Shown here in pieces: positions 29,975-34,708 of a stretch of 64,000 nucleotides of DNA. Position 1 is the stretch's first letter, and every line of letters begins with the position of its first letter. The translations under genes and the position numbers were made by a program. The notes beneath the pieces are model-generated. The model was given only the letters and a program-made list of their open reading frames with translations. It had not been told where the DNA came from and did no database searches. This DNA is from Flagellimonas allohymeniacidonis (lineage in GTDB: Bacteria; Bacteroidota; Bacteroidia; Flavobacteriales; Flavobacteriaceae), in assembly GCF_004296335.1 (NCBI RefSeq), contig NZ_SGIU01000002.1:385882-449881 (forward strand). Direction: 5' to 3'.

Positions 29975-32683
29975 CTATAATTTCTTTTTGACGGCCACTT
30001 CTTGGAAGGCTTCTACAATATCACCCTCCTTGATGTCATTGTAGTTCTTAACCTGCAGACCGCAATCGTATCCCTTGGAAACTTCCTTCACATCGTCCTT
30101 AAATCGTTTAAGGGAAGCAAGTTCGCCCGTAAAGATTACGACCCCATCACGAATCAAGCGTATTTGGGAGTTTCTGAATATCTTTCCAGTAGTGACCATA
30201 CAACCGGCAATGGTACCGACCTTGGAAATTTTAAAGGTCTCACGTATCTCGGCGTTTCCTGTAATTTCTTCCTTGATTTCGGGAGATAGCATCCCTTCCA
30301 TCGCGTCCTTAAGGTCATTGATAGCATCATAAATAATGGAGTACATTCGAATATCGATTTCCTCCCTATCCGCCACAGATCTAGCGTTACCCATAGGCCG
30401 CACGTTAAACCCAATTATAATTGCATCGGAAGCGCTTGCCAAAAGAACATCTGATTCCGTAATGGCACCTACTCCTTTGTGAATGATATTTACCTGAATC
30501 TCATCAGTTGACAATTTTTGGAAGGAATCGGTAAGAGCTTCCACAGAACCATCCACATCACCTTTTAAGATAATATTCAATTCCTTGAATTCTCCTAGCG
30601 CAATTCGTCTACCAATCTCATCCAAGGTAATGTGCCTTTGGGTCCGAACCGATTGCTCTCTTTGCAGTTGCGATCGTTTTGCAGCAATTTGCTTGGCTTC
30701 CCGTTCATCATCCAAGACATTGAAACGGTCTCCTGCCTGCGGTGCACCATCCAATCCTAGTATGGATACCGGCGTGGCGGGGCCCACTTCCTTAACGTCT
30801 TTTCCGCGTTCGTCTTGCATGGCCTTAACTTTACCACTACACGTACCGGCCAAAACATAATCTCCTATCTGCATTGTACCTGATTGCACCAAGACAGTAG
30901 AAACATATCCCCGACCTTTGTCCAAGAACGCCTCAACAACTGTACCTGAAGCCAGCCTGTCTGGATTGGCTTTCAATTCCAACAATTCGGCCTCCAACAA
31001 TACTTTTTCCAAAAGCTCCTTGACGCCTTGACCGGTTTTGGCCGAAATATCGTGGGATTGGATTTTCCCTCCCCAATCTTCAACCAAAAGGTTCATTGCC
31101 GCCAAGCCTTCCTTAATCTTATCAGGGTTGGCTGTGGGCTTATCTATTTTGTTTATTGCAAAAACAATAGGAACATTCGCTGCTTGGGCATGACTGATAG
31201 CTTCCTTGGTTTGAGGCATAATGTCATCGTCCGCAGCCACTACGATAATGGCTATATCCGTGACTTGGGCACCACGTGCACGCATCGCGGTAAACGCTTC
31301 GTGACCTGGCGTATCAAGAAAGGTTATACGCTGTCCATCTTGCAGAGTAACGCCGTAAGCACCAATATGCTGTGTAATTCCACCGCTCTCACCGGCAATA
31401 ACATTTTCTTCACGGACATAATCCAGCAAGGATGTTTTACCATGGTCAACGTGACCCATAACCGTAACGATGGGGGCTCTTGGTTTTAAATCTTCTGGTG
31501 CGTCCACTTCCTCCTCAATGGATTCCTCAATCTCGGCGGTTACAAACTCAACTTCATAGCCAAATTCATCAGCAACTATGGACAATGTTTCTGCATCCAA
31601 GCGTTGGTTCATGGTCACCATAATCCCTAAGGACATACAGGCTGAAATAATCTCGGTAGTGGAGACATTCATCATCGTGGCCACCTCATTGACCGTAACA
31701 AATTCGGTCACTTTAAGAATCTTGCTCTCCAATTCCTGAAGCTCAAGATCTTTTTCGGTTTGTTGCCTATGTTGGTCTCTTTTTTCCCTTCGGTATTTGG
31801 CTCCTTTGCCTTTAGCGGATTTACCTTGAAGTTTTTCAAGGGTTTCCCTTACCTGCTTTTGTACTTCTTCTTCAGTGGGCTCAACTTTAGGAGCCGAACT
31901 ACGTTGTCCCCCTCTACGGCCTTGTCCATTTCCGCCTCGGCCACCTTGACGATCACCTCTACCGGCTTGAGGACCTGTTTTACTGATGATGCGTTTTCTT
32001 CTCTTTTTTCTATCAGCTCCCTGGGCGGTATCTTTCGACTCCTCTTTCTTGGTCTCTTCTTTCTTCTTCTTGGGCTTTTCGAATTTGGAAAGGTCAATTT
32101 TATCCCCAGTTATTTTTGGTCCGGAAAGTTTCTTGTACTGAGTCTGTATGGTTTCCGGTTCTTTTTGTTCTTCTTGGGCAGTTTCTGTTTTCCCGGTTTC
32201 CTCTTTGGAAACTGGCACTTCCTCCTTTTCCACTTTTTCCTCCACAACCTCAGGAGCTTTGACTTCAGGTTGTTCTTGGGTTGGAGCTTCCTCTGTAATC
32301 GTCTCAGCTTCTGGTTTTTTGTCCAGTTCGATCTTTCCAACCGTCTTTGGACCAGAAAGTTCAACCTTAGCCTTGATTACCTGACTTTGAGCTTGCCTAC
32401 GTTCTCTGGCCAATCGGCGCTCTTCCTGCTCTTGCTCAATTTGAATACGAAGGGCTTCTTTTTCCTTGCGCTTCTCTTCGCCCACTTCCTTGGAAGCTAC
32501 CTTTTTGCTCTTGTCAGTCTGGAATTCATCCAACAGGACCTGATACACCTCATCACTGATTTTAGTGGTAGGACGTGCCTCCACCTCATGTCCTTGATCA
32601 GAAAGATAATCTACTGCCCGATCCAATGAAATGTTCAATTCCCTTAGAACTTTGTTAAGTCTTATTGTTGGGTTTCCTGCCAT
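29975..32683 (-). CDS. infB: Translation initiation factor IF-2
   Basis: IF-2 is the GTPase that brings initiator tRNA to the ribosome. The 902-residue protein has an N-terminal IF2_N-like part ([21 protein letters not shown]), then a long low-complexity Lys/Glu/Gly/Arg region to about residue 300. A second N-terminal module and the GTPase domain follow, with G1 [13 protein letters not shown]3 DTPGHEAF and G4 NKID. The C-terminal domains end in KKL. It is the third gene of the rimP-nusA-infB operon. The low-complexity part explains the long open shadow frame on the other strand. Confidence 0.97.
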
Positions 32684-32728: not shown

Positions 32729-33961
32729 TTAATCTTCAAACTCTTCTTTGAGAATCCGAACCACATTTTGAACGGTTTCCTCTTCCAAATCGGTTCGTTT
32801 GATCAAATCGTCGACGTCTTGCTCTAAAACGCTTCTTGCCGTATCCAATCCAATCTTTTTGAACTCATCGATCACCCAGCTTTCTATCTCATCGGAAAAC
32901 TCGGTCAACTCAACATCTTCTTCAACCCCTTCGCGGAACACATCAATCTCATAACCAGTCAACTGACCTGCCAAACGAATGTTGTGCCCTCCTCTACCAA
33001 TGGCCTTTGAAACCTCCTCGGGTTTAAGATAAACTTGGGCGGTTTTCTTTTCATCATCCAATTTTACAGATGACACTCTCGCCGGACTCAACGCGCGGGT
33101 CACCATCAATTGTGAATTGTTGGTCCAATTAATTACATCAATATTTTCATTGCCCAATTCACGAACAATTCCATGAATTCGAGACCCTTTCATTCCTACA
33201 CATGCTCCAACAGGATCAATACGGTCATCATAAGAATCAACGGCAACCTTGGCTTTCTCACCAGGAATACGTACCGCTTTTTTTATTGTGATGAGGCCGT
33301 CAAAAACCTCTGGTATTTCTTGGAAGAACAACTGCTCTAAGAAAATCGGTGAGGTTCGCGACATAATAATCGAAGGTTTGTTTCCCTTAAGTTCAACACT
33401 TTCGATTATTCCACGCACATTATCTCCTTTTCTAAAGAAATCAGATGGTATCTGTTTTTCTTTGGGAAGAATGATTTCATTCCCTTCGTCGTCCAATAAA
33501 ATAATCGCCTTATGACGAATGTGGTGCACCTCGGCGGTATAAATCTCGCCTTCAAGGTCCTTGAACTGCTTATAAATTGTGGTATTGTCATGCTCGTGGA
33601 TTTTAGAAATCAAATTCTGGCGTAAGGCCAAAATTGCACGACGTCCCAAATCCATTAATTTCACTTCTTCCGAAACATCTTCACCAACTTCAAAGTCAGG
33701 TTCAATTTTTCTAGCTTCACTCAAGGAAATTTCTTCATTGGGTTCTTCCACTTCACCATCTTCCACAACCACACGGTTTCTCCAAATCTCTAAATCTCCC
33801 TTATCTGGGTTGATGATAATGTCAAAATTTTCATCTGAACCAAATTTTCTCTTCAAGGCCCCTCGGAAAACTTCTTCCAAAATGGCCATAAGGGTAACCC
33901 TATCTATAAACTTATCGTCCTTAAATTCCGAAAAGGATTCGATGAGCGCTAGGTTTTCCAT
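32729..33961 (-). CDS. nusA: Transcription termination/antitermination factor NusA
   Basis: NusA binds RNA polymerase and nascent RNA to control pausing, termination and antitermination. The 410 residues include the N-terminal polymerase-binding domain (NLALIESFSEFKDDK), an S1 domain near residues 130-200 (EGEIYTAEVHHI), and two KH domains with VGACVGMKGSRI and GRGGHNIRLAGQLTGY. A short acidic C-terminal tail replaces the E. coli repeats. It sits 13 bases after rimP and 45 bases before infB. In E. coli NusA represses its own operon through leader terminators, which makes the hairpin in front of rimP here relevant. Confidence 0.96.
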   Translation of the reverse strand: MENLALIESFSEFKDDKFIDRVTLMAILEEVFRGALKRKFGSDENFDIIINPDKGDLEIWRNRVVVEDGEVEEPNEEISLSEARKIEPDFEVGEDVSEEVKLMDLGRRAILALRQNLISKIHEHDNTTIYKQFKDLEGEIYTAEVHHIRHKAIILLDDEGNEIILPKEKQIPSDFFRKGDNVRGIIESVELKGNKPSIIMSRTSPIFLEQLFFQEIPEVFDGLITIKKAVRIPGEKAKVAVDSYDDRIDPVGACVGMKGSRIHGIVRELGNENIDVINWTNNSQLMVTRALSPARVSSVKLDDEKKTAQVYLKPEEVSKAIGRGGHNIRLAGQLTGYEIDVFREGVEEDVELTEFSDEIESWVIDEFKKIGLDTARSVLEQDVDDLIKRTDLEEETVQNVVRILKEEFED

Positions 33962-33974
33962 TTTTGAACTTCAA

Positions 33975-34436
33975 TTAAAATTTTAATACAACTTTTGCTT
34001 CTTCAATTTCAGAAAATGCAATTTCCCGCTTTTTCTGAACAGTTACCTTACCCTTGCCAACTGGTTTGGGTTCGCGTGTTTTCCACTCTAATGTGATATG
34101 ATCGTCGTTGGCATCGGTCAAATTGCCCTCAATCTCTTCTCCGGCGGTTTTGACCTTTAATTTTCTACCAATATTTTTTTTATACTGTCGTGGCATTTGC
34201 AAAGGAGAAGTGGCTCCTGCCGAGGTTACCTCAAGGGCAAAGTCCTCTTCTTCCCTGTCCAAATTATGCTCGATGGCCCTGCTCACGTCCATGCAATCTT
34301 GCAGATTCACCCCATCATCACCATCCAAAACAACCCGAACGGTATTGTCTCCTCCCACGGTCATATCAATTAGAAATAGCGAGGGATGCTTTTTTAGAGC
34401 TTTATCCAACAACTCCTTCACCTTTTCTTTCAACAT
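33975..34436 (-). CDS. rimP: Ribosome maturation factor RimP
   Basis: RimP assists maturation of the 30S subunit. The 153-residue protein shows the family motifs [21 protein letters not shown] and [15 protein letters not shown] and has the usual two-domain size. It begins [14 protein letters not shown], is the first gene of rimP-nusA-infB and lies 17 bases after a strong hairpin in its own leader. The last bases are close to nusA, suggesting coupled translation. Confidence 0.95.
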
Positions 34437-34453
34437 AGATTTTAGTAATAAAA

Positions 34454-34474
34454 GAGGGGACTCGAAGTCCCCTC
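34454..34474 (-). terminator. Hairpin in the rimP leader, possible attenuator
   Basis: On the minus strand a 9-pair stem GAGGGGACT/AGTCCCCTC closes a three-base loop and is followed by TTTTATT. It lies downstream of a promoter at 34504-34535 and ends 17 bases before the rimP ATG, so it is inside the operon leader. It could be a terminator attenuating the operon or a hairpin affecting ribosome access. Confidence 0.7.
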
Positions 34475-34503
34475 ATGAATACTTTTATATCCGTTCAGTG
34501 GCG

Positions 34504-34535
34504 CAAATATACAACATTATAAGAGTTTGCGCAAA
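34504..34535 (-). promoter_or_regulatory. Promoter of the rimP-nusA-infB operon
   Basis: On the minus strand TTTG at 34535-34532, 20 bases, then TATATTTG at 34511-34504. The likely start is near 34497, upstream of the leader hairpin and downstream of the tRNA-Gln terminator, so the operon can be transcribed independently of the tRNA. Confidence 0.7.
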
Positions 34536-34545
34536 GGGTATCAGA

Positions 34546-34573
34546 AATAAAAAACCCCAACGGAAAGTCGGGA
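34546..34573 (-). terminator. Terminator after tRNA-Gln
   Basis: Minus-strand stem CCCGAC/GTTGGG (one G-U pair) with a four-base loop, followed by a GTTTTTT run. It begins about 15 bases beyond the tRNA 3' end. Confidence 0.75.
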
Positions 34574-34587
34574 TTTTTTGTTTTAAG

Positions 34588-34659
34588 TTGGCCTACAAGG
34601 ACTCGAACCTTGAACGACTGAACCAAAATCAGCTGTGTTACCAATTACACCATAGGCCA
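34588..34659 (-). tRNA. tRNA-Gln(TTG)
   Basis: A full cloverleaf can be folded: a 7-pair acceptor stem TGGCCTA/TAGGCCA, D stem GTGT/ACAC, anticodon stem GCTGA/TCAGT, loop TTTTGGT with anticodon TTG, and T stem CAAGG/CCTTG. The discriminator base is A and the CCA end is not encoded. It is transcribed toward rimP with its own promoter and terminator. Confidence 0.96.
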
Positions 34660-34677
34660 GTACCACATTTGAGCGTG

Positions 34678-34708
34678 CAAATTTAAGACAAACTTTCATT
34701 TCGACAAA
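34678..34708 (-). promoter_or_regulatory. Promoter of tRNA-Gln
   Basis: On the minus strand TTTG at 34708-34705, a 19-base spacer and TAAATTTG at 34685-34678. The expected start near 34671 lies about 12 bases upstream of the tRNA 5' end. Confidence 0.7.

Follow-up and report, generated by a model that had tools for sequence, protein, structure and literature searches.

Why should a hairpin that looks like a terminator stand between the rimP-nusA-infB operon and what appears to be the operon's own promoter, where it would obstruct the operon's own transcripts? The question is raised by the window, meaning the whole 64,000-nucleotide stretch of Flagellimonas allohymeniacidonis DNA that was analysed here, taken from a genome that measures 3.57 Mb and is assembled into 6 contigs. 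An earlier note on this DNA had answered with an attenuator linked to NusA, in an arrangement that included a tRNA gene.

The rimP locus and its leader

Everything discussed here lies on the minus strand, and read toward rimP the parts come in the order tRNA-Gln, terminator-like hairpin, promoter, second hairpin with a T-rich tail, rimP, nusA and infB; the earlier note had laid out the parts as far as rimP in just this order, and all are present. Against NCBIfam models, rimP (33975..34436, 153 aa) scores 220.4 bits for NF002531, where the cut-off is 123, nusA (32729..33961, 410 aa) 365 bits for TIGR01953 (cut-off 253.4) and infB (29975..32683, 902 aa) 834.8 bits for TIGR00487 (cut-off 424.4). 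The gene for tRNA-Gln(TTG), at 34587..34659, forms a separate upstream unit, with a likely promoter whose -7 box, TAAATTTG at 34678..34685, was picked out by eye from the consensus, and with a terminator-like hairpin on its 3' side (34549..34579) that folds at -14.8 kcal/mol. That tRNA (RF00005, 64.4 bits) is the sole Rfam match above threshold, the remaining matches, at E values up to 10, lying below their own gathering scores.

The promoter of rimP fits the Bacteroidota type. By eye it reads TTTG-N20-TATATTTG (34535-34504), with the -33 box TTTG at 34532..34535 placed 20 nt from a -7 box TATATTTG at 34504..34511 that is also conserved in relatives, and it fits the Bacteroidota consensus boxes quoted in PMC7366714. 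Since the -7 box of Flavobacterium psychrophilum is placed at -12 to -5 (PMC9723704), transcription would start near 34499 and yield a leader RNA of about 63 nt (34437..34499). A good promoter had been claimed before, with a start near 34497, and the start predicted here lies within a couple of nucleotides of it; what does not hold is its reading as a sigma-70 promoter, which we rejected because the TATAAT in question is one of 6 sites where shuffled sequences yield 6.1, that is, the chance level.

The leader hairpin, at 34454..34474, was recognised by pattern, folding and conservation. It reads GAGGGGACT TCG AGTCCCCTC, followed by TTTTATTACT, so that a loop of TCG is closed by a stem, GAGGGGACT/AGTCCCCTC, of 9 pairs, 6 of them G-C; the family form of the stem is GAGGGGAC-loop-GTCCCCTC. 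Immediately 3' of the stem comes the T-rich tail TTTTATTA (34446..34453), identified from the sequence and from the T-run of the family, and 17 nt separate the end of the stem from the rimP ATG at 34436, exactly the gap given in the earlier note. Hairpin and tail together fold at -16.4 kcal/mol. The leader fold has a z of -2.59 and is equalled in 4 of 200 shuffles, and 3 kb of the locus hold 6 terminator-like sites against 2.9 (sd 1.8) in shuffles. From the source sequence alone, then, the evidence for the hairpin is modest, and it is the comparison with relatives, by the family pattern and the strict test in the class, that excludes chance.

In 78 of the 129 family loci, the source among them (34454-34476, minus strand), there is an ATG that overlaps with the stem at its base (ATGAGGGG). 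We considered a leader peptide beginning at this ATG and rejected it, because the ATG is present in only those 78 loci and the varying loop lengths shift the frame.

Conservation from family to phylum

Of 299 Flavobacteriaceae genomes, 284 gave a RimP match, and from these we took a non-random set of 130 loci, including the source, that favours the better RimP scores (the 30 best and 100 further ones) and was picked without regard to the leader. A hairpin stands before rimP in 129 of the 130 by pattern and in the last, L062, by eye, where it reads GGGGGGAC...GTCCCCTC. Of the 129, 121 have GAGGGGAC without any change as their 5' arm and 75 have TTTTTATA as their tail, while the loops vary between 3 and 7 nt and the stretch ahead of the stem, some 20-27 nt by eye, varies too. 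A strict test for a hairpin followed by T residues is passed by 126 of the 130 loci against 0.2% of shuffles, and the pattern hairpin is present in all four that miss it (L076, L089, L100 and L138). Two of these, L100 and L138, have a variant stem, GAGGCGAC...GTCCCTC, which needs a bulged C in order to pair along its full length.

What becomes of the tRNA in this company? Within the 1.2-1.5 kb fetched upstream, a tRNA gene accompanies 34 of the 130 family loci (32 Gln genes, one of which lies on the other strand, and 2 Leu genes), as against a hairpin in all 130. We therefore rejected the tRNA as a functional part of the element, which the earlier arrangement had made of it, and read its nearness as shared gene order. 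In each of 12 family genomes with a nearby tRNA-Gln the rimP stem is GAGGGGAC, and the 10 detectable stems among the tRNA-Gln terminators of the same genomes are all different.

A promoter-type box, in turn, goes with the hairpin. The box TA..TTTG[CT] occurs within 80 nt 5' of the stem in 129 of 129 pattern-positive family loci, and in the class TAnnTTTG lies 9-38 nt 5' of the stem in 83 of 87 hairpins, compared with 7.6% of random 70-nt stretches. In the 129 family loci the gap from the -7 box to the hairpin is narrow (20-30 nt, median 27, sd 1.8), whereas the gap from the hairpin to the start codon is wide (12-112 nt, median 17, with 12-30 nt in 116 of 129), the start codons being taken from alignment to the source RimP and accurate to about 12 nt; the hairpin thus appears tied to the place where the polymerase starts, not to the place where the ribosome does. 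The gap to the start codon reaches 50-112 nt in 13 of the 129 loci (L003, L006, L009, L011, L012, L016, L020, L021, L027, L041, L042, L044 and L047). In one of these, L027, the long spacer holds another terminator-like hairpin with a T-run of its own; a second structure as a general feature of the long spacers was rejected, z being -2 or lower in 2 of the 13 (L016 at -2.84 and L027 at -2.03).

For the class, 90 loci were chosen on RimP score alone, again non-randomly from the best (30 plus 60), and 84 of them pass the strict test, against 0.5% of shuffles. Five of the six that miss it (L209, L220, L225, L236 and L259) have a hairpin by eye, and the sixth, L252, has none under relaxed rules either, which makes 1 in 90. 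The set of 87 class hairpins leaves out L224, where another hairpin scored higher and the model matches, and includes L209, L220, L236 and L259 by eye. Of the 84 class hairpins, 25 match GAGGGGAC exactly in the 5' arm, 43 have GGGGAC there and 82 have GGG; G outnumbers C in the 5' arm of 82 of them, and of 124 of 126 in the family. The T-run is polar and lies on the rimP side: in the family there are on average 6.0 T in the 8 nt after the stem and 3.5 A in the 8 nt before it (129 loci), and the class values are 6.6 and 4.1. Many class tails have at least six consecutive T after the last G-C pair.

Covariation is another matter, because a strong test would need more variation than the family stem offers. 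Its cells are paired in 99.1%, many as G-U, and 4 cells are doubly changed, three of them from G-C to C-G and one from G-C to A-U. These double changes are confined to 1 of 8 pairs, and at least as many pairs are hit in 120 of 500 shuffles; the count of double-change cells and the covariation score exceed all 500. Compensatory stems are seen in L099, L107, L118, L130 and L137, as GAGCGGAC/GTCCGCTC in four of these loci and GAGAGGAC/GTCCTCTC in one. In the class, double changes affect 5 of 8 pairs and 26 cells, where slid controls give 0-2 pairs and 0-8 cells, in an alignment that was fitted to the model, includes some opposite-strand palindrome matches and so leans toward structure; a MAFFT alignment of 78 distinct class hairpins had shifted 5' arms and was left out of the pair counts. 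The earlier note had looked to an alignment for a conserved stem with covarying pairs, and both are there, the conservation by the family pattern and the class strict test, the double changes chiefly in the class.

How specific, then, is the hairpin to rimP? A hairpin-only covariance model, built on Flavobacteriaceae rimP leaders and holding no gene information, finds a match at E up to 0.05 in 186 of 395 class genomes, many of them weak. RimP lies directly downstream in 28 of the 29 matches listed besides G000, a check that covers these 29 listed loci. Nine of the 29 are family members, of which 3 had served in building the model; the other 20 come from other families and have RimP downstream in 19. 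The match without rimP, L171, resembles an ordinary bidirectional terminator in an intergenic position, and we rejected it. In the source genome the rimP leader scores 50.9 bits with this model and the runner-up site 23.0, and with no other strong match to speak for a regulon, that idea was rejected for this genome.

When one genome from each species was scanned for GAGGGGAC and GTCCCCTCTTTT with 3-7 nt between them, at least 118 matches came up. Among those listed, 112 of 116 testable ones stand just before RimP or in an open frame that runs into RimP, a count that combines two rules, which gave 107 of 118 and 95 separately and 112 of 118 together; the rule giving 107 missed open frames extending far through the motif, and the rule giving 95 missed frames that start inside it. 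At L291 and L315 the DNA ends, which makes them untestable, and L269, L271, L308 and L322 are without rimP. Of 80 named matches among those listed, 77 are Bacteroidota on a reading of their names (Thermobacterium included), and the remaining three, one each from Clostridia, Rhodospirillaceae and Selenomonadales, all lack rimP at the site.

Beyond the class, the strict test is passed by 19 of 26 additional loci from other classes of the phylum (L384-L409), and the other 7 pass a looser test that allows loops of up to 15 nt and has no shuffle control. Their stems differ, with GTGGGG/CCCCAC as one example and the C-first CGCCC/GGGCG as another. Across the phylum, structure, T-run and place persist where the sequence of the stem does not. 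The C-rich 5' arms found outside Bacteroidia (CGCCC/GGGCG) are the inverse of a published G-first motif.

How the leader may work

We think it likely that the element attenuates transcription of rimP-nusA-infB through an intrinsic terminator close to the promoter, with NusA as the probable tuning factor. On this account RNA polymerase would start near 34499, make about 25 nt of RNA and then the 9-bp hairpin with its U-run; a share of polymerases would stop at the U-run and free a leader RNA of about 50 nt, and the rest would read on into rimP-nusA-infB. With no antiterminator structure apparent by eye, the stopping share would most likely be set by a protein on the paused polymerase. NusA, which favours hairpin pausing and intrinsic termination, would be the best candidate for this controller, since it is also encoded in the operon, and the result would be negative feedback on NusA, RimP and IF-2; NusA-dependent termination has reportedly been described in B. 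subtilis, by Mondal in 2016. The transcript start, the termination and its strength, and the part given to NusA are predictions made from sequence. The link to NusA would draw on gene order and on precedents, and gene order, with nusA the same-strand downstream neighbour of rimP in 60 of 60 loci checked, simply allows it. Termination itself may be weak or dependent on a factor, because the T-run is interrupted (TTTTATTA in the source, TTTTTATA in 75 of 129 family loci).

A terminator would not need a stem as well conserved as that of the family, and this hints at some further, sequence-specific role. We consider it unlikely, though worth spelling out, that a dedicated factor, NusA or RimP, reads the promoter-proximal stop by its sequence: 121 of 129 family loci carry GAGGGGAC unaltered and GGGGAC recurs in 43 of 84 class hairpins while neighbouring terminators drift freely, and the idea loses ground because GAGGGGAC is exact in only 25 of the 84. 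Stems outside the class differ and often have a C-rich 5' side, so no single recognition sequence would serve the whole phylum. If such a factor did exist, the leader would act in Bacteroidia as a feedback gate by which ribosome assembly is coupled to the capacity for transcription termination, and other classes would have rewired its stem.

The same constancy of the 5' arm, set beside ten tRNA-Gln terminator stems that are all different, could also be expected of a site at which RimP, NusA or a ribosomal protein binds by sequence and controls translation or processing. We give this quite a small chance, since the loop is free to vary from 3 to 7 nt, the distance to the start codon varies, and the sequence is diluted in the class (25 and 43 of 84 for the two motifs) and replaced in other classes. 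Distance also bears on the view that the hairpin shields the rimP mRNA from decay or keeps its start region open, with no termination involved: it would sit close to the RNA's predicted 5' end, at about +26 to +46, and it lies 12-30 nt ahead of the start codon in 116 of 129 loci. That view is quite unlikely too, for the 13 loci with gaps of 50-112 nt fit it poorly and it has no need of a one-sided T-run, which is nevertheless retained and polar.

An interrupted T-run and a near-fixed distance from the -7 box would both suit a hairpin pause site, dependent on NusA or NusG, at which the polymerase couples with the first ribosome and no RNA is released. This is very unlikely in our opinion, given that in many class tails the last G-C pair is followed by an unbroken run of at least six T, as in terminators, and that the corresponding transcript of Streptococcus agalactiae ends there (PMC4448216). 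In the source genome, where the hairpin lies downstream of tRNA-Gln and its terminator, one might finally see a second terminator insulating rimP from tRNA-Gln read-through; a tRNA in the fetched flank of only 34 of 130 loci, together with a position 3' of the promoter-type box in 129 of 129 family loci and 83 of 87 class hairpins, where the hairpin would obstruct rimP's own transcripts, makes this extremely improbable.

Known relatives and wider meaning

The attenuator that we favour has relatives. A rimP-leader of the same kind was described in Firmicutes and Gammaproteobacteria (Naville & Gautheret 2010, PMC2965389), and the likeness is close: both are 5' leaders of rimP-nusA-infB with a short hairpin, a G-rich 5' arm, a C-rich 3' arm and a T stretch, no visible antiterminator is described in that account, and the distance to the gene is variable in both (4-130 nt there, 12-112 nt in our family). 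Their motif GGGc(...)gCCC, in which we take lower case to mean weaker conservation, compares with GAGGGGAC...GTCCCCTC here, in which GGGG and CCCC are retained and an A-U pair separates them from the closing C-G. The main text of that paper contains no occurrence of bacteroid, flavobact or cytophag, and its species tables may include Bacteroidota. The gammaproteobacterial Rfam family RF01770 (rimP) shares gene and leader position with our element; the source leader, however, is not a member of that model, its score being 14.5 bits for the minus strand (16.0 for the other strand) against a gathering score of 47.

In E. coli K-12, the metY-rimP-nusA-infB leader has terminators t1 and t2 (PMC6511841), and the likeness extends to a tRNA gene, terminators and an inner promoter ahead of rimP; by eye, the last hairpin before rimP (L383) is of the GGGC-loop-GCCC type, followed by T7. 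E. coli differs in its initiator tRNA-Met, longer leader and RNase III sites, the source having a separate tRNA-Gln unit and a predicted leader of about 63 nt. S. agalactiae resembles the source in its short leader with a terminator-type hairpin near the start: transcription of its rimP-nusA-infB ends 31 nt after the start at an intrinsic terminator, and NusA feedback was proposed (PMC4448216). That bacterium belongs to the Firmicutes and its ends were mapped by RNA-seq, the source leader being predicted from DNA. A rimP leader RNA is in addition listed among ProQ-associated attenuator-derived RNAs (PMC5391140), and an E. coli fusion of the rimP 5' UTR and ORF shows lower expression in a Rho mutant (PMC7815308), a result that bears on Rho and not on the source hairpin.

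Closest to home, a 2021 study of F. psychrophilum lists 64 structured 5' regions and names as an example an element upstream of rimP, conserved in other Flavobacteriaceae genera and without an Rfam hit (PMC9723704). Very probably this is the element described here; the passages on rimP in that account report its presence and give no structure, extent or mechanism. Among the papers listed from the literature searched, titles and abstract openings pointed to no other work on the structure or mechanism of the element in Bacteroidota.

How much of the earlier note's proposal survives? An attenuator-like terminator hairpin after a good promoter, conserved and with covarying pairs, does; the tRNA has dropped out, and convergence is no likelier than shared descent with turnover of the stem, for the same kind of element is described in Firmicutes and Gammaproteobacteria. 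The element is the Bacteroidota form of a known, little-studied kind of rimP leader and ordinary in kind, and the facts added here are its extent, its stem consensus, its promoter spacing and the turnover of its stem across the phylum. It offers material for a new RNA family entry, the family-trained model having returned rimP leaders at 19 of the 20 listed loci from other families. Few attenuators have been mapped for Bacteroidota in the literature surveyed, and a short, near-universal leader made up of a promoter-type box, a stem and a T-run would give this phylum a simple test system for NusA feedback and intrinsic termination.
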